From IMG/VR virus record IMGVR_UViG_3300037621_000066, positions 1-28,736 of that record: DNA of 28,736 nucleotides. The stretch is one strand, 5' to 3'. Numbering within the stretch: the first letter of the stretch is position 1; each line of letters begins with the position of its first letter. Positions 1,171 to 21,183 of this stretch are shown here, in pieces. The stretch comes from a virus. The translations under genes were made by a program, and so were the position numbers. The notes under the pieces are model-generated. The model was given only the letters and a program-made list of their open reading frames with translations. It had not been told where the DNA came from and ran no database searches.

Positions 1171-3294
1171 GTGGCAACAGTAGATCTTGGAAAAATTAAA
1201 TTTACATGGAGAGGCACATATGCCGACACAACAGTCTATGAGGCAGATGATGTTGTCTATGATGGAAGCTCCTCTTTCGTTTACATTGGAGGGGCAACAC
1301 CTGCAGCTTATGCAGCATTAACAACGTACAATACAAACGATGTTGCTATAGGCTCTGACAGTAAAGTTTATCGATACATTAATTCTAGTGCTACAGCAGG
1401 CAATGATCCAACAAGTACATCAGGTTTTTGGGCAGTAAACCAACCTGGCACAACATCTCCTGCCACAACATTTTGGAACTTGATGGCAGATGGTACTAAC
1501 CCTCTGACTACTCAGGGCGATGTGATGACACACGATGGAACTAATGCTGTTCGTTTAGCTAGAGGTTCATCAGGTTCAGTATTAAAAGTATCAGGTAGTG
1601 ATTTAGTTTTTGGATCTGAGCAAGGATACACAGGTCATAAACATCTGTTGTCTAACTATGGTAAAAACCCTGCTAATCCTGCAGCATCAGTTGTATATGG
1701 AGATGCAGGTAAATATCCTTGGTTAGCAAATTACGCAAACAATTGGATACCTGAGTGTGGTTCACCAAACCCTGCTTGTGGCCCTGTTAAAAATTCAGAC
1801 AAAGGTATTACTAACAATGGATATCGAGTAAATTGTTGGCTTAATGAAAACCATGAATTGGTTTCAGGTGGTGACGATGATTATCATTGGTTAGGTACAT
1901 CATCAGCAGAGAAGCATGTTAAGAGTGTATGTAATAATATTTCTGCAGAGCATGGGGGAATGCGTGATGGAGATTACTTTGTAAGATTATGGATCTCATA
2001 TGTTGGCAATGTAATCTTGTTAACCAAAGATGGCGATTTGTTCACAGCAGGCTACAATGCTTATGGTCAGCTTGGCACAGGTGGAACAACAGATAGATAT
2101 ATGTTAGCTAAGGTTTCTACTCTTGGGCCTGATGCTACTCATGGTGGTGTTTCATGTCAGATTGCAGGTTTCCATCATAGTAATGCAACCGATCAAGGTG
2201 CAGCTATTTATACATCATGCTATGCCATCGACACATCAGGTAGATTATTTGTTTGGGGTTATAATGGCTCAGGAAAACTAGGTATTGGTAATGCAACAAA
2301 TCAATCTTATCCTGTATTAGCATCTGCTATTTCAAATGTTGTATCTGTTTCAGCAGGAATGCAGTCTGCTCATGCGATTACATCATCAGGAGATCTGTTT
2401 AGAACAGGTCATGATCAAAATAATATTAACCAGGGTTCAGCAGTAACAAGTTGGACTGACACAGCACAGAACAATGCTTATCAGGTTCTAAATAATGATG
2501 GGTATTATACAAGCTCAAATGCTTATGCATCTGCTCATTATCTAAATACGTCAGGTGAAATGTATGGAATTGGTGGTAATCCATATGGTCAGTTGGGCGA
2601 TGGAACAACGGCACAGAAATCAGCATGGGTAAGGTGTGGTGGTTCACTAACATTTAGCTCATTCTATGCTGCAGGTAACTCATACTATAATATGTATTCA
2701 GCTTTGGGTGGAACACCTGGAGCAAGCAACAATGATTTTTATAATTGGGGTTACAATCCTGGTGGTCAGTTAGGTCAAGGGAATGCTACAGCCCTATCCA
2801 CACCTACGCAGCCACAGACTACAAGCCTTTACAGTCACACTATAACATCAACGTCTAGTAATTCTGCTCCTACAAAGACAGACATAGCTGTACCTGTGAA
2901 CGACATACATCATGTGTATCCATTGCAGGGCATTTCAGGAGAGTCATATTTTTGCAATATGATTGAAGATCAATATGGTAGGATTTGGAAAGCAGGCTAT
3001 GGTGACAATGTAGACAATCAAGAAAATCAGAGTACCACTACATCACATCAAAACTATTTCTTAGTACCATCACCTTTCAATGCAACAGGAACCATTTCAG
3101 GTACTCATTGGGCAGGCAAAAGTGTGGTAACAATCCACGACATCTACCATACAGGTAACGACTATGGAGGTGAGGGATGTCTCATCATGGTCACATCAGA
3201 TGGTCGTGTTTGGGCTATGGGTTACAATGGTCAAGGTCAGCTTGGTGGTGGTGACGGCTCATTCGTTGGACAATGGATGCAATTAACACCTTAA
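1171..3294 (+). CDS. RCC1-repeat seven-bladed propeller tail fibre / receptor-binding protein
   Basis: A 707-residue protein starting at GTG 1171, seven bases after AGGAGGG. Residues 1-75 hold two W/Y-G-x-Y-x3-D-V repeats resembling small carbohydrate-binding modules of phage fibres. Residues about 105-150 look like a fibre linker. From about 285 to the end, RCC1-type units recur at residues about 288, 357, 407, 462, 521, 603 and 678. The form is G-x-hydrophobic-x3-G-x-N-x2-GQLG-x-G; the units at 407 and 603 lack the GQLG part. Seven units match the seven blades of an RCC1 propeller, and the last ends 13 residues from the C-terminus, so the propeller caps the fibre. Position after the gp17-like fibre suggests it is the host-recognition tip. 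RCC1-like fibres are known in marine phages; the ligand cannot be predicted. Confidence 0.8.
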   Translation: MATVDLGKIKFTWRGTYADTTVYEADDVVYDGSSSFVYIGGATPAAYAALTTYNTNDVAIGSDSKVYRYINSSATAGNDPTSTSGFWAVNQPGTTSPATTFWNLMADGTNPLTTQGDVMTHDGTNAVRLARGSSGSVLKVSGSDLVFGSEQGYTGHKHLLSNYGKNPANPAASVVYGDAGKYPWLANYANNWIPECGSPNPACGPVKNSDKGITNNGYRVNCWLNENHELVSGGDDDYHWLGTSSAEKHVKSVCNNISAEHGGMRDGDYFVRLWISYVGNVILLTKDGDLFTAGYNAYGQLGTGGTTDRYMLAKVSTLGPDATHGGVSCQIAGFHHSNATDQGAAIYTSCYAIDTSGRLFVWGYNGSGKLGIGNATNQSYPVLASAISNVVSVSAGMQSAHAITSSGDLFRTGHDQNNINQGSAVTSWTDTAQNNAYQVLNNDGYYTSSNAYASAHYLNTSGEMYGIGGNPYGQLGDGTTAQKSAWVRCGGSLTFSSFYAAGNSYYNMYSALGGTPGASNNDFYNWGYNPGGQLGQGNATALSTPTQPQTTSLYSHTITSTSSNSAPTKTDIAVPVNDIHHVYPLQGISGESYFCNMIEDQYGRIWKAGYGDNVDNQENQSTTTSHQNYFLVPSPFNATGTISGTHWAGKSVVTIHDIYHTGNDYGGEGCLIMVTSDGRVWAMGYNGQGQLGGGDGSFVGQWMQLTP

Positions 3295-5863: not shown

Positions 5864-6312
5864 TGTTTACATTAAGTGATAGAAGCAAGAGCAGGCTTGA
5901 AGGTATAGAGCCTAAGCTGATTGCTTTGACTGAGCTTGCTATAGATTATACTAAGATAGATTTCGGTGTGACCTGTGGCATGAGGACAGTTGCTGAACAG
6001 CAGGAGCTTGTTGATAGTGGTGCATCTCAGACTATGGATAGCAAACATATATCAGGACAGGCTGTTGATGTAGTAGCTTACATTGGATCTAGGATTACAT
6101 GGGAATTAAATGTCTATGATGACATAGCTGATGCATTCAAGATTGCTGCCATTGAAACTGACACACCTATTCGTTGGGGTGCAGCTTGGCACATCCCTGA
6201 CATCAGGGAATGGGGAGGCACAATGGAAGAAGCTATGAATGCCTATGTCGATTTAAGACGAAGGCAGGGTCGTAGACCTTTCATCGATGCTCCCCACTTT
6301 GAGCTAGGGTAG
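5863..6312 (+). CDS. endolysin, M15-type peptidoglycan peptidase
   Basis: A 149-residue protein, the usual length for single-domain M15 endolysins. The zinc-site motifs are visible: SKH-x2-G-x-A-x-D (His62, Asp69) and APHFELG at the C-terminus (His145), with the conserved RWG-x2-W before the last motif. Family members (T5 endolysin, VanY-like) cleave L-Ala-D-Glu or D-Ala-D-Ala bonds of peptidoglycan. No signal peptide is present, so export depends on the holin encoded upstream. It is the last plus-strand gene of the lysis cassette and overlaps the convergent regulator gene by nine bases. Confidence 0.88.
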   Translation: MFTLSDRSKSRLEGIEPKLIALTELAIDYTKIDFGVTCGMRTVAEQQELVDSGASQTMDSKHISGQAVDVVAYIGSRITWELNVYDDIADAFKIAAIETDTPIRWGAAWHIPDIREWGGTMEEAMNAYVDLRRRQGRRPFIDAPHFELG

Positions 6313-6555
6313 GATAGCAATACCTCTTGGCGATGCTACTTCTTTAAGTATCCATCCTTTACGTTTCAAGCATTCCAATATCCTCTGCACATTAGATGGT
6401 GCTGAAGATTTTTTGATAACTTGATGCCCATCGATCTTGCCTTTGCAGATCTCACGAACAGTTGGATAGACACCATACTCTTTATGATATTGTTTCAGGA
6501 ACTGAAGCACCAAAGCCTGCTTAGGTGTTAGCCCTATTCTAGGTAGTGCTTCCAT
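6304..6555 (-). CDS. LexA-type winged-helix DNA-binding protein without peptidase domain
   Basis: An 83-residue protein. LTPKQALVLQFLKQYHKEYG (9-28), YPTVREIC (30-37) and LKRKGWIL (63-70) follow the order of the LexA N-terminal domain: helix 1, the PTVREI recognition-helix start and the wing. The LexA S24 autoprotease half is absent, so it cannot self-cleave; it may be a stand-alone repressor or compete at LexA sites. It is the last gene of the minus-strand recombination operon. The start has AGGAGG seven bases upstream, and the start overlaps the end of the RecT gene by 17 bases. It lies tail to tail with the endolysin, with no terminator between. Confidence 0.75.
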   Translation of the reverse strand: MEALPRIGLTPKQALVLQFLKQYHKEYGVYPTVREICKGKIDGHQVIKKSSAPSNVQRILECLKRKGWILKEVASPRGIAILP

Positions 6556-8504: not shown

Positions 8505-8679
8505 TTGTTACCTCCTCAATACCAACATAGCTGTAGTAACAGCTATCAATTAAAGCACAGCCTATCCATGAACCTGCCCACAGCATCACGCAGAACAGTA
8601 ACACGCAGATAAACTCTGCCAGGAATATCCATCTTTCTTTGACAGACATATCTCTTAGAAAATTAATTAACTCCATCAT
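8488..8679 (-). CDS. small single-TM membrane protein
   Basis: A 63-residue protein with a cationic N-terminus (FLRDMSVKERW) and a hydrophobic stretch about 17-44 rich in Cys, Leu and Trp, then a polar tail. The start is either of two adjacent ATGs; the first overlaps the recombinase stop as ATGA and follows AAGGAGGG. It lies between the recombinase and the exonuclease in one operon. The family is not recognised; small TM proteins in early phage operons can inhibit host functions or exclude other phages, but nothing here shows that. Confidence 0.6.
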   Translation of the reverse strand: MMELINFLRDMSVKERWIFLAEFICVLLFCVMLWAGSWIGCALIDSCYYSYVGIEEVTNAKAN

Positions 8680-9365
8680 GCAGCCCTCCTTAATAAGTTA
8701 GACACAGTTGATGCATACCAATCGCCACCTCTTGCAGTCTTGATACCTCTGTCGTTTAGCTCGACTGCAATATCTTTAAGGCTCTTGCCTGTTGACTGTA
8801 GGCTTTGAACCAATGGCAGATTGTTAGCTGCAAAGCTATCAGCCTTGGCTCTGATCTTAGCATTGCCCAGGTCACTAGCTTTCTTACAGCCATTGCCTAA
8901 GCTGTATATCTTTTGACCTGCCTTGCTGATAAAGAAACCATTGGCCTGGATCTCTGCCTTCTGTCTAGCATGGGCAGCCTTTGTTCTTTGTGAGATCTTC
9001 AGGCTTTCCATCTGTTGTATCGTAAAGAAGATACCTGCTGTGTCAGGCTCTAGGTTTGGGTAGTCCAGGGCAATCATCTTTTGTTTACCTGATAACACAT
9101 TGTCTCTGTACCAGGTGCTTACCTCAGCTAGATCCCTGCCAAACCTGGACAGGTTAGCTGCTACGATTGGGCAGCCTAGTTTCTTAGCTAACTTAGTTGC
9201 CTTGATAAACTCAGGTCTGTCTGCGTTAGGTGTGCTGCCTGACAGTACCTCATTGAACCAATGGATCTGACAGTTAGGGAAAGCTATCTCAACCTGGTGA
9301 TGTTGGTTAACTACATCCTGTTTGTCTGTACTGACACGAGCTATCGCTACTATTTCTTTATACAT
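8676..9365 (-). CDS. serine recombinase (resolvase/invertase family)
   Basis: A 229-residue protein. The catalytic motif IARVSTDKQ places the nucleophile at Ser12. NLSRFGRDL (71-79) supplies the conserved Arg and Asp residues, and MESLKISQRTKAA matches the end of the catalytic domain before helix E. The C-terminal region (about 190-229, GKSLKDIAVELNDRGIKTAR, then a Trp-containing helix) is a helix-turn-helix DNA-binding domain. The length is close to small resolvases or invertases, not the 450+ residues of large serine integrases. It may resolve genome dimers or invert a segment rather than integrate. The start has AGGAGGAAA upstream and lies 24 bases from a palindromic operator candidate. 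Confidence 0.85.
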   Translation of the reverse strand: MYKEIVAIARVSTDKQDVVNQHHQVEIAFPNCQIHWFNEVLSGSTPNADRPEFIKATKLAKKLGCPIVAANLSRFGRDLAEVSTWYRDNVLSGKQKMIALDYPNLEPDTAGIFFTIQQMESLKISQRTKAAHARQKAEIQANGFFISKAGQKIYSLGNGCKKASDLGNAKIRAKADSFAANNLPLVQSLQSTGKSLKDIAVELNDRGIKTARGGDWYASTVSNLLRRAA

Positions 9366-10524: not shown

Positions 10525-10546
10525 GGAGACAGCCTAAGCTGCCTCC
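10525..10546 (-). promoter_or_regulatory. RNA hairpin straddling the ArdC stop codon
   Basis: On the minus strand GGAGGCAGC and GCTGTCTCC form a nine-bp stem (one G-U wobble) with loop TTAG, which contains the ArdC stop codon TAG. The wobble would be an A-C mismatch in plus-strand RNA, so minus-strand function is favoured. No T-run follows, so it is not a normal terminator; it may stabilise the upstream message or modulate translation of the next gene. A ten-base repeat AACCAGGAGG occurs on either side. Confidence 0.5.
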
Positions 10547-11460
10547 TGGTTTGCTACCTCAGCAGTTGGGTTAAGAAACTCAACAGCCTGGTTAGCTTTG
10601 GTGAATGCTGAGAAGATAGCTTTAGGATTATCCTTGATAGCCTTCTTCCAATTGTTAAGGTACTTGGCATGGTCTGCTCTTGGTGCAGGGCTAACACCTG
10701 TAACGACTGACAGGATAGCAGCACCTGTCTCAGCGACTAGCTCCTCGAATGCATACTCAGAGTTACCAAAGAATGCATTACTCTTGAGCCTGTCTAGTCT
10801 TGAGGTATGTCCTGACCAATGAACAAGCTCATGTAGCAGAGTAGAATAGTATGCCTCTTCTGCTGTGCTTGTATCTGTACCTGTGTAATCTTCTTTGGCA
10901 GGCATTGCGATATGGTCAGGGCCAGGTGCATAATGTGCAGAGGCACCACCATGTTTGATGACTGCACCTGTTGCAGATACTAATGCATCAACAGCCTGGT
11001 TGTTAAACTCAACAGGCTCAGGCTTCACGATAGCAGGGCTGTCGTATCCTTCAACCTGCTGTGCATTGAATACCTTGTATGCTTTCAGCATCCATATGTT
11101 CTTGGTTTTCTTATTGCCGTTATCATCCTTTAGGATTTTACCTGATGCATCCTTCTGATCAATCTTGATAGGCTTCCAAAAGAAAATGTCTGTTGCCTTA
11201 GATCCTTTGATGATCGATGCACCTTTGCCTGACCATTGCTTGAACGTAGCCCACTCATTAGTTGAGTAACCTGCAGAGTAAGCAACCATACCTAACCAAA
11301 ATGAATTGATACCCTGGTATGCTTTCTTAGATACAACATTGAATGGCTGACCTGATGCGATGGTAGACAACCAAGGCTTCTGCCAATTGGTGCCATGCTC
11401 TTCCATCAGGGCCAAGATTTCTGTTGATACTTTTGCGATGATTTCTTTTTGAGTAGTCAT
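10534..11460 (-). CDS. ArdC-like antirestriction protein with metallopeptidase domain
   Basis: A 308-residue protein. The N-terminal domain (about 1-130: WQKPWL near 26, AYQGINSFWL near 47, WATFKQW near 70 and KGSKAT) is the ArdC single-strand DNA-binding domain. The C-terminal domain carries HELVHWSGH (210-218) with the HExxH zinc site and a second conserved acidic helix (FEELVAETG, 238-246). ArdC proteins of plasmids and phages protect incoming DNA from type I and II restriction, and the peptidase-like domain is of the polyvalent-protein type. As one of the first genes in the minus-strand operon it is placed for immediate expression. ATG 11460 follows AGGAGA. Confidence 0.85.
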   Translation of the reverse strand: MTTQKEIIAKVSTEILALMEEHGTNWQKPWLSTIASGQPFNVVSKKAYQGINSFWLGMVAYSAGYSTNEWATFKQWSGKGASIIKGSKATDIFFWKPIKIDQKDASGKILKDDNGNKKTKNIWMLKAYKVFNAQQVEGYDSPAIVKPEPVEFNNQAVDALVSATGAVIKHGGASAHYAPGPDHIAMPAKEDYTGTDTSTAEEAYYSTLLHELVHWSGHTSRLDRLKSNAFFGNSEYAFEELVAETGAAILSVVTGVSPAPRADHAKYLNNWKKAIKDNPKAIFSAFTKANQAVEFLNPTAEVANQEAA

Positions 11461-11903: not shown

Positions 11904-12267
11904 GCCATCCAAGTACAAGAATAAAAGATACAAGTTGGATGGGCATAACTTTATGAGTAAAGCAGAGGCAGCTTACTATTCGTATCACCTGAAGCCACAG
12001 TTGGATGATGGAAGGATATCGGATTTAGAATTTCAACCAAGGATTAAATGTATAGTAGGAGGAGTATTAGTATGCACATATATAGCAGACTTTCGTTACC
12101 AAGATCTGAACCAAGAGAAGATAGTGATAGAGGTGAAGGGATACGAGACAGACATCTACAAGCTGAAGATGAAACTAGTCAAAGCCCTGCATCCACAGTT
12201 GAAGATCTTAGTGATCTACAGCAAACAGTTAAGTGCAGAGATATCATCATTGCTGCCTCAAGAATAA
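11896..12267 (+). CDS. DUF1064-family PD-(D/E)XK nuclease
   Basis: About 123 residues from GTG 11896 (seven bases after AGGAAG; an in-frame GTG at 11890 is too close). The family pattern is clear: KYKNKRYKLDGHNFMSKAEA, then LEFQP, YIADFRY and IVIEVKGYETDIYKLKMK. Glu24, Asp65, Glu79 and Lys81 form the likely metal-binding site. DUF1064 proteins are found in phage replication/recombination modules and are thought to be endonucleases, possibly acting on branched DNA. The last 196 bases also encode the start of the next gene in another frame. Confidence 0.8.
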   Translation: MRKPSKYKNKRYKLDGHNFMSKAEAAYYSYHLKPQLDDGRISDLEFQPRIKCIVGGVLVCTYIADFRYQDLNQEKIVIEVKGYETDIYKLKMKLVKALHPQLKILVIYSKQLSAEISSLLPQE

Positions 12268-12509
12268 GTGAGGTAAGCACAGCAGACATACTATCTGCCA
12301 GGAGAATGAAGCATATCACCTTGGTCAGGCATATAGTCTACAAGCTGACATACGAGCTATGTCCATACAGCTTTCCACAGATGGGCAGGATGCTGAACAG
12401 GGATCACACGACAATCATCTCAGGCATCAAAGGTATCGACATCAAGATCATGCACAACAAATACATCAGGGATCTATACGATAAGATCCTGGCAGAGGTG
12501 CTAGGTTGA
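12072..12509 (+). CDS. DnaA domain-IV (DnaA-box-binding) protein
   Basis: A 145-residue protein. ATG 12072 is chosen because a strong AGGAGGAG (12057-12064) lies exactly seven bases upstream; no ATG or GTG occurs in this frame between 12072 and the DnaA-like domain. Residues about 55-145 match the C-terminal domain of DnaA: the basic helix (SARRMKHITLVRHIVYKL), then PQMGRMLNRDHTTIISGIKG, with the RDHTT signature that reads DnaA boxes. There is no AAA+ ATPase domain, so it can bind DnaA boxes but not assemble the ATP-dependent helix. The first 65 residues, acidic and disordered, are overprinted on the DUF1064 gene. It probably acts at the phage origin with the initiator encoded next, or displaces host DnaA. 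Confidence 0.75.
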   Translation: MHIYSRLSLPRSEPREDSDRGEGIRDRHLQAEDETSQSPASTVEDLSDLQQTVKCRDIIIAASRISEVSTADILSARRMKHITLVRHIVYKLTYELCPYSFPQMGRMLNRDHTTIISGIKGIDIKIMHNKYIRDLYDKILAEVLG

Positions 12510-13495
12510 AGAAGAGTAAGCTAACACCTGACATTGTAAGAGATGCACCTAAGGCATCAGGTGGCAGCTTCCAATGTCCAGGGCCTCATATGATTATGCC
12601 TGCCAGGGCATATGGTGATAACAGGTTCAATCAATTCCCTATGACATTCAGAGCATTCAGTATCTGTTGCAGCCATGCCAACAGTTGGACAGGTGTATTC
12701 TTTCCTAACCAATTGTACATAGCCCAGGTCTTAGAGTGTAGTCAGCAGGCAGTCTCACAGCATATGCGTAAGCTAGTAGATTATGGATACATTCATAAGC
12801 TGAGGAACGCAGACATTCGCAGAACCTATGGCAAGAAGGGAGCCTTGTGGAGAGTGATATACGATCCATCCAAGAGCCTGGAGGATTGCATCAGTATGCA
12901 GCCTGCACAAGATAGAGATCCTGAGATGGAGAAGGAGATTGCCAAGCATACTCTTAACGTCATGGCATCAGGTGCTAAAGGCAGCAGGAAGGGAAGAGCT
13001 ATGCAGGCTTTAAGTAATGCACAGCCTGTGGATAACAATAAGGAATACAAGACACAGCTTGTACAAGGTACAGATAGTAATGCTGTAATAGATGATACAG
13101 ATAACAAGGTAGGGCTTGTACTAGATAACAAGGCACAGCTAGTAAATAACTCCATTAACTTAACTAATATAAATACTAGTAAGGATATAAAAGAAATTGA
13201 TTGTAGGAAGTTGTGTAACGAGTATGCACGATTGATACAAGCAACCTATGGAAAGCCTTGGAGCTATGACATGAGACAGATGCAATACGCATCAGACATC
13301 CTTAGAGCCATGAGCCTGGAGGCATTCATTGTAGATGCAGCAGGTGTAATAGAATGGAAGAAGCAGAAGAACCAACAGCCACCATATTCATTGCAATACT
13401 TTATAAGCAGGAAGGTCAGTCAGCACAAAGCTAAGACAGGCAAGGATGCTATGGATATTGTAAGGCAGATGAGTAACAAGATGAGGATCAAGTGA
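12506..13495 (+). CDS. lambda-O-like replication initiator, winged-helix protein
   Basis: A 329-residue protein starting at TTG 12506, which overlaps the preceding stop (TTGA) and follows AGAGGTG. Residues about 45-120 form a winged helix: FPMTFRAFSICCSHANSW, then the recognition helix CSQQAVSQHMRKLVDYGYIH (78-97) and a basic wing. The middle (about 150-230) is low-complexity with repeated DNK/DNN and QLV units. The C-terminal domain (about 235-300) is helical and could contact a helicase loader or helicase. N-terminal wHTH, a repeat-bearing linker encoding the origin and a C-terminal interaction domain is the layout of lambda O. Sequence-level family membership is not certain; other phage replication proteins share this fold. 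Confidence 0.7.
   Translation: MKKSKLTPDIVRDAPKASGGSFQCPGPHMIMPARAYGDNRFNQFPMTFRAFSICCSHANSWTGVFFPNQLYIAQVLECSQQAVSQHMRKLVDYGYIHKLRNADIRRTYGKKGALWRVIYDPSKSLEDCISMQPAQDRDPEMEKEIAKHTLNVMASGAKGSRKGRAMQALSNAQPVDNNKEYKTQLVQGTDSNAVIDDTDNKVGLVLDNKAQLVNNSINLTNINTSKDIKEIDCRKLCNEYARLIQATYGKPWSYDMRQMQYASDILRAMSLEAFIVDAAGVIEWKKQKNQQPPYSLQYFISRKVSQHKAKTGKDAMDIVRQMSNKMRIK
13027..13200 (+). other. candidate replication origin inside the initiator gene
   Basis: Three elements lie together. A perfect DnaA box, TGTGGATAA, is at 13027-13035. Two tandem 24-bp repeats, 13100-13123 and 13124-13147, share GATAACAAGG and agree at 17 of 24 positions; a partial copy GATAACAA is at 13031-13038, and GCTTGTAC recurs at 13057-13064 and 13114-13121. 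Last comes an AT-rich tract 13141-13200, with 12 G/C of 60. A ten-bp palindrome CTTGTACAAG lies at 13058-13067. Iterons followed by an AT-rich unwinding region within the initiator's linker is how the lambda origin is built in gene O. This is inference from pattern only. Confidence 0.6.
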
Positions 13496-20139: not shown

Positions 20140-20166
20140 TTTACAAGATGGAGCTTGTGATATAAT
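20140..20166 (+). promoter_or_regulatory. candidate promoter upstream of the capsid gene
   Basis: TTTACA (20140-20145) and a perfect TATAAT (20161-20166) with 15 bases between, in the largest non-coding gap of the window (20129-20322). The spacing is short; AATAAT at 20164-20169 gives 18 bases. TTGTGATA at 20155 resembles the candidate before the tail fibre. An extra promoter for abundant capsid mRNA is plausible. Confidence 0.4.
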
Positions 20167-20194
20167 AATTATATTTGATTGATAACTGTGACCA

Positions 20195-20283
20195 TAACAG
20201 CCAATCTGACTACAGATAATTCTGTCGTTAGCCTAGTCGTAAACTAGGAGGTTACAGCCCAAGACTTACTTGGATAACTGTTG
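20195..20283 (+). ncRNA. structured capsid mRNA leader, cloverleaf-like
   Basis: Three short hairpins follow each other. ACAGA/TCTGT is at 20212-20225 with loop TAAT, CCTAGT/ACTAGG at 20232-20248, and CCAAG/CTTGG at 20259-20273. A closing stem AACAG (20196-20200) with CTGTT (20278-20282) surrounds them. An alternative stem ATCTG/CAGAT (20204-20217) excludes the first hairpin. GATAACTGT is directly repeated at 20181 and 20274. An AGGAGGT at 20246-20252 partly in the second hairpin has no start codon nearby. It may be a leader RNA controlling stability or translation of the capsid message; a canonical tRNA is excluded. Confidence 0.4.
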
Positions 20284-20322
20284 CGATTTTATTAATTGTA
20301 ATGCTTAACTAAGGAGGTCGTA

Positions 20323-21183
20323 ATGACTACACAAGCAAATCTATCTCCTGCATTCGTACAGCTATTTGAAGCAGAAGTGCATCAGGCCTATCAAGCCTCT
20401 GCCGTTCTGACAGGTGCTGCTCGTATGCGTACAGGAGTGGTTGGTTCTACTGTGAACTTTCCAAAGGTAGGTAAAGGACAGGCTTCTGTTCGTACTCCTG
20501 CCTCCGATGTCGTGCCGTTAAATACATCTTTCTCATCTGTATCTTGTACTCTAACTGATTACTATGCTGCAGAATATAGTGACATCTTCTTACAACAGAA
20601 GATTAACTTTGATGAAAGACGAGAGTTGGCTCAAGTTGTCGGAAACGCAATTGGTCGAAGGCAAGATCAAATCTTGTTGGATGCCCTAGCTACTGCAACA
20701 GCAGGAACTACTGTGGCTAACACAGTTGTGACTACAGGTTCAGCAGCAGCATCAGACCTAAACATGGGTAAATTGATTGCAACCAAAAAAGCATTGGATG
20801 CAAAAAACGTACCTGCTGAAAATCGTCATATCATTATTCATGCCAATAACTTGGCTGCGTTACTAGGTGATGAACGAGCAATCTCAAGTGATTACCAAAA
20901 CATCCAGGCATTAGTGTCAGGGCAGATTGGTACTATCTTGAATATGCGTGTTCATGTTCTAGGTGATCGTGATGAGGGTGGTCTAGCAATCGATGGTTCG
21001 AGTGATCGTACCTGTTTTGCTTTCCATCAGTCAGCATTGGGTTGTGCCGTGGGTATGCCACCAAGCACAGAAATTAACTATATTGCAGAAAAAACATCAT
21101 TCCTGGTCACAGGAAAACTAAGCATGGGTTCAGTTGTTATTGATACCGATGGTCTAGTCGATGTTACCTGCAGAGAAGCATAA
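20323..21183 (+). CDS. major capsid protein
   Basis: A 286-residue protein with a perfect SD AAGGAGGT (20311-20318). The layout (LSPAFVQLFEAEVHQAYQAS, VNFPKVGKGQASVRTPASDV, YYAAEYSDIFLQQKINFDER, AQVVGNAIGRRQDQILLDAL, then a beta-rich C-terminus ending in a DTDGLVDVTCREA strand) is that of HK97-fold coat proteins of short-tailed phages. It follows the scaffold gene and precedes the tail tube genes. There is no N-terminal delta domain, consistent with a separate scaffold. It is probably the most abundant protein made in infection, which fits its own leader and promoter. Confidence 0.87.
   Translation: MTTQANLSPAFVQLFEAEVHQAYQASAVLTGAARMRTGVVGSTVNFPKVGKGQASVRTPASDVVPLNTSFSSVSCTLTDYYAAEYSDIFLQQKINFDERRELAQVVGNAIGRRQDQILLDALATATAGTTVANTVVTTGSAAASDLNMGKLIATKKALDAKNVPAENRHIIIHANNLAALLGDERAISSDYQNIQALVSGQIGTILNMRVHVLGDRDEGGLAIDGSSDRTCFAFHQSALGCAVGMPPSTEINYIAEKTSFLVTGKLSMGSVVIDTDGLVDVTCREA

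Follow-up and report, generated by a model that had tools for sequence, protein, structure and literature searches.

Positions 13027–13200 of a marine phage genome are very likely a replication origin that works like ori-lambda, judging from conserved sequence elements within the gene for an O-like replication initiator (Table 1). We analyzed the whole 28,736-nucleotide stretch (28.7 kb, here called the window) of IMG/VR record IMGVR_UViG_3300037621_000066, which holds podovirus-type structural genes as well as genes for recombination (RecT, a YqaJ-like exonuclease and a serine recombinase). The serine recombinase (8676–9365) occurs with an ArdC-like protein (10534–11460) in this podovirus-type genome, and a large predicted protein (1171–3294) contains repeated GxLFxxGxNxxGQLGxG units that are RCC1-like by appearance. 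GC skew along the window tracked gene strand, and no origin signal was found in it.

Table 1. Positions in the window of the candidate origin, its neighboring genes and the site at the capsid gene.
Feature	Position	Strand	Remarks
DnaA domain-IV ORF (PF08299)	12048..12509	+	Judged to lie outside the origin system
O-like replication initiator	12506..13495	+	Pfam HTH_36 and PHROG "replication initiation O-like" matches, AlphaFold2 confidence profile, relatives
DnaA box TGTGGATAA	13027..13035	+	Starts about 20 nt before the start of iteron 1, with a gap of about 10 bp
Iteron 1 ACAAGACACAGCTTGT	13047..13062		Perfect dyad
Iteron 2 ACAAGGTACAGATAGT	13063..13078		Two mismatches; abuts iteron 1
Iteron 3 ACAAGGTAGGGCTTGT	13104..13119		Perfect
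Iteron 4 ACAAGGCACAGCTAGT	13128..13143		One mismatch; 24 bp from iteron 3
AT-rich putative unwinding region	13141..13200	+	12 G/C in 60; adjoins the last iteron
Putative sigma-70 promoter	20140..20166	+	TTTACA (20140–20145), 15 nt, TATAAT (20161–20166); overlapped by the distal iteron
Distal iteron ACAAGATGGAGCTTGT, putative operator	20143..20158		Flanked by the capsid-assembly gene and the major capsid gene
Leader hairpin 1 of the capsid transcript	20177..20206	+	7 of 8 predicted pairs vary among 24 records, mostly as compensatory or standard pairs
Major capsid gene	20323..21183	+	PHROG 3437; downstream of the distal iteron

An earlier note on this DNA had described a perfect DnaA box, two 24-bp repeats (GATAACAAGG at 13100 and 13124), a ten-bp palindrome (CTTGTACAAG, 13058–13067) and a 60-base AT-rich tract with 12 G/C. 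All of these are present as it stated, but it had called too few repeats. We found an array of four dyad iterons, related 16–18-mers of the form ACAAG-N6-CTTGT; iterons 3 and 4 correspond to the two 24-bp repeats, and the palindrome marks where iterons 1 and 2 meet. The reading frame of iteron 2 differs from that of the other three. The lowest G/C count per 60 nt in the O-like gene of the window is 11, which was reached by 0.2% of codon shuffles, and in the relatives the AT-rich minimum starts at the last iteron or shortly after it. The sequence AACTA (13162–13166) in this tract is kept in 20 representative genes, and the residues encoded there vary.

The O-like protein has 329 aa and an N-terminal winged helix with the recognition helix SQQAVSQHM. 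Its PHROG matches ("replication initiation O-like" and "DnaD-like") were weak and came via the winged helix. The AlphaFold2 model, whose overall confidence was modest, consists of the winged helix, a disordered linker (residues 156–226) and a helical C-terminal domain, and the candidate origin is predicted to coincide with the linker. Homology to lambda O was not detected (hhalign probability 0.1%), Foldseek returned only MarR-like winged-helix matches with weak E-values, and Pfam gave no match to Rep_3/RepA/TrfA-type or other plasmid Rep families. DNA and protein searches with the O-like gene against 50,697 phage records gave no match. About 75 relatives (33–73% identity) were obtained from scans of viral contigs. 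When bacterial genomes were scanned for a copy in a prophage, the single match was a terminase-like protein with only the string QQAVSQHM in common, which was rejected; L038–L047 were false relatives of the same kind and were dropped. Homologs of lambda P (PF06992), DnaC/IstB and DnaB were not found in ten records examined, some of which are possibly incomplete.

The earlier note had named an alignment of relatives as a check, and the iterons do persist beyond coding constraint, both in their use of three frames and at synonymous sites. When synonymous codons were redrawn across 20 diverse O genes, 1.2 perfect iterons were expected and the largest of 300 draws gave 5, against 43 observed. The same null gave 0.44 expected genes with a perfect DnaA box (largest draw 3), compared with 15 of the 20. 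A looser test on single genes (≤2 mismatches, codons shuffled within the gene) was mostly not significant, so the statistical strength comes from the family. Synonymous identity was 1.8–2.2 times expectation over codons 169–228 (about 13010–13190) and 0.9–1.4 times nearly everywhere else in the gene.

The relatives examined keep two to four ACAAG-type iterons; the exceptions, L118–L122 and L124, are the most distant and have other motifs. A distance of 24 bp separates the last two iterons in each of the 20 diverse genes and in the clade with ACAAC iterons; in L086, another gene, the spacings are 33 bp. The number and spacing of the outer iterons vary among relatives. In L124 (record G048), the most distant relative at 33% identity, the iteron is ACGYA-N6-TRCGT in three copies, and two DnaA boxes are present.

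Whole-record searches for perfect ACAAG-N6-CTTGT revealed a further copy, usually single, 6.5–8.5 kb downstream of the in-gene copies. We examined 27 records that reach the capsid gene, and 24 of them have this distal site, 119–164 nt (about 150 in most) ahead of the capsid start codon. In G041, G044 and G048 it is either missing or degenerate; in G048 no distal copy matching its own iteron was found either. The site is perfect in 21 of the 24 records, counting the changed copy of G046, and has one mismatch in three. The expectation for perfect copies was 0.0085, a comparison that applies to 24 regions picked for holding a site, with the three lacking one listed apart. No O-like gene was found in MEP301, a related Methylophilales phage with a 57% identical portal, and the distal site is absent from it.

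The hexamer TTTACA precedes the distal site in 21 of the 24 records. A TATAAT-like hexamer follows 15–19 nt on; it is weaker than the first and varies among genomes from convincing to poor, and a promoter consensus scan by itself was at chance level. From this arrangement we infer a capsid promoter at the distal site. With the site lying across the putative −35 element and spacer, repression would be the most likely effect of O binding there. The six central bases follow coding need inside the O-like gene and vary freely at the distal site, so the bases recognized are probably the two five-base arms of the dyad. In the open-access literature we found no report of a capsid promoter that carries an initiator iteron.

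The stretch from the putative capsid promoter to the capsid gene contains a conserved structured RNA leader (20159–20322; L127–L150). More hairpins are visible in it by eye, one with GAAA-like loops, and a search against Rfam gave no family match. On the linear contig of L132 (record G013, 29500–30300), 25 kb lie between O and the capsid-site iteron; joining the contig ends shortens this to about 7.1 kb, a distance which suggests that the genomes are circularly permuted.

The best evidence on which protein binds these sites is a joint change of recognition helix, iterons and distal site, although it represents one evolutionary event in one clade. In L118–L122 the recognition helix is SQQAVSRHF, not SQQAVSQHM, and the three in-gene iterons are ACAAC-N6-GTTGT. 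G046 is the only record of this clade that reaches the capsid gene, and its sole further perfect ACAAC-N6-GTTGT is the capsid site. Thus, the O-like protein probably binds both the origin iterons and the capsid site. The L078 clade has a different helix change, SQQAVSHHM, yet its iterons stay ACAAG.

Two perfect DnaA boxes occur in the window, so the box alone is near chance. Third codon positions within the box are mostly fixed. L022 has no box in forward orientation and carries the inverted TTATCCACA twice; the box is doubled in L082, L085, L106, L113, L114 and L125 and missing from several clades. Taken together, this suggests a genuine DnaA site that the phages can do without. The earlier note went further and suggested a combined DnaA/O origin. 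In such an origin the phage DnaA domain-IV protein would bind the box at 13027 and initiate together with O. The two genes are indeed neighbors in the window, and the DnaA domain IV keeps RDHTT, a signature typical of DnaA-box binding. However, box and gene do not co-occur. The nearest relatives, for example the 28–35 kb records G002, G005, G014 and G034, carry the box and lack a DnaA domain-IV gene, in other clades the gene occurs without a perfect box, and no association existed among 17 representatives (Fisher P = 1). At the loci read in detail, moreover, the gene follows and overlaps a DUF1064 gene, sometimes at 1–3 kb from O, and its product has no AAA+ domain. A combined origin of this kind therefore seems very improbable to us, and a phage-encoded DnaA domain-IV partner was not found described in the open-access literature. 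Because the box is independent of that gene, host DnaA would be the likelier and simpler partner, by analogy with iteron plasmids. In the window the DnaA domain-IV ORF and DUF1064 overlap in different frames, and no ATG, GTG or TTG is present near where the domain begins; the arrangement recurs in relatives. Translation of the ORF may begin within DUF1064, far upstream, or involve frameshifting.

Three further explanations concern the iterons themselves. The first is that the repeats exist for the sake of the protein, as DNKxQLV units, and do not act as a DNA site; it could be argued from the window, where three of the four copies are in frame and encode similar peptides. Among relatives, however, one 16-mer motif is encoded in all three frames, as NKPQLV, VQGAAC and TSSSLC, so protein repeats cannot account for the iterons; the third positions of the codons are fixed, and one copy, upstream of the capsid gene, is non-coding. 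For practical purposes this explanation is refuted. It is also conceivable, if rather unlikely, that another phage regulator binds the iterons, which would serve as operators or in partition, and that the origin is elsewhere. Candidates would be a small conserved protein encoded upstream of DUF1064 and a LexA-like protein (6304–6555), and such a role would agree with the motif copy in a promoter-like region. Against it, an AT-rich tract and a DnaA box stand beside the iterons within an initiator-like gene, and the change of the iterons coincides with that of the O recognition helix. The last explanation addresses only the distal iteron, which might limit or license replication by pairing with the origin and have no part in capsid transcription. 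This could occur by handcuffing or in the manner of crtS, the site for RctB of Vibrio. A usually single copy 6.5–8.5 kb away would suit such a role, but conserved gene order accounts for the distance, and at about 150 nt from the capsid start the site coincides in part with a promoter-like region; we give this explanation a small but appreciable chance.

We consider it likely as a whole that the phages have an ori-lambda-like origin bound by O, with host DnaA as an accessory, and that O also acts at the capsid promoter, most simply as a repressor. In this model, dimers of the protein would use their winged helix to bind the three to four in-gene dyad iterons. The AT-proximal pair, fixed at 24 bp, would then drive strand opening in the AT-rich tract, and in genomes that keep it the upstream DnaA box would recruit host DnaA. 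The O-like protein and host factors could bring in host DnaB; as the ten records yielded no DnaB, DnaC/IstB or lambda-P homolog, this recruitment may be carried out by O, by an unrecognized protein or by host DnaA. The same O-like protein would also occupy the single iteron over the putative −35 box and spacer of the capsid promoter, 7 kb off. A more tentative extension, which we think could well be wrong, is a copy-number timer of the lytic cycle: O would block the capsid promoter early, the replicated iterons (three to four per genome) would titrate O, and the capsid gene would be turned on once there are enough genomes for packaging.

The layout shares much with ori-lambda. In both, the origin (here a candidate) lies inside the initiator gene, and lambda also has four iterons, dyads of about 18 bp in more than one reading frame (lambda record J02459; PMC7466680). 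An AT-rich tract directly follows the last iteron, as in lambda and the Stx-phage origins. The minimal unwinding unit of lambda consists of the two AT-proximal iterons and the AT tract (PMC7466680), which matches the 24-bp AT-proximal pair found here, the most regular pair of the array. Unlike in lambda, the iteron sequence is unrelated, no P gene was found and the initiator has no detectable homology to lambda O. The lambda O gene also has no perfect DnaA box (J02459), whereas the O-like gene has one. According to PMC3985674, which cites Szalewska-Palasz 1998, DnaA binds sites downstream of the lambda promoter pO; host DnaA, as we propose here, would thus act near the phage origin in both cases, but the box of our phage precedes iteron 1 by about 10 bp. 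In iteron plasmids DnaA boxes are standard neighbors of the iterons, and RK2, F, pSC101 and P1 likewise have DnaA boxes, iterons and an AT-rich region side by side and a winged-helix initiator (PMC4980987). In contrast to these plasmids, the candidate origin is located within the initiator coding sequence, the iterons are dyads and no plasmid Rep family was matched.

The lambda-type origin proposed in the earlier note is thus upheld in its architecture and in the constraint on iterons, AT tract and DnaA box, but its link to DnaA domain IV is not supported. With neither O homology nor a P gene found, the system cannot be filed in the lambda O/P family. Judged from its sequence, it is of a known kind, an iteron origin inside an initiator gene, and the new element is the conserved secondary iteron at the capsid gene.

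We know of no lambda counterpart of an iteron in a capsid promoter. SV40 T antigen is an origin-binding protein that also regulates late transcription, and the O-like protein would resemble it in this double role, its effect on late transcription being putative. The two proteins are unrelated, and in contrast to T antigen the effect predicted for the phage is repression.

With these results, a widespread group of uncultured marine phages gains a precise candidate origin. The lambda layout, in which iterons lie within the disordered linker of the initiator, also occurs with an initiator that is not detectably related to lambda O. To our knowledge, a link between replication and the coat through a shared site is unfamiliar from described phages. 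The site shared with the putative capsid promoter suggests that such a link, simple and conserved, connects genome replication with coat production in this group.
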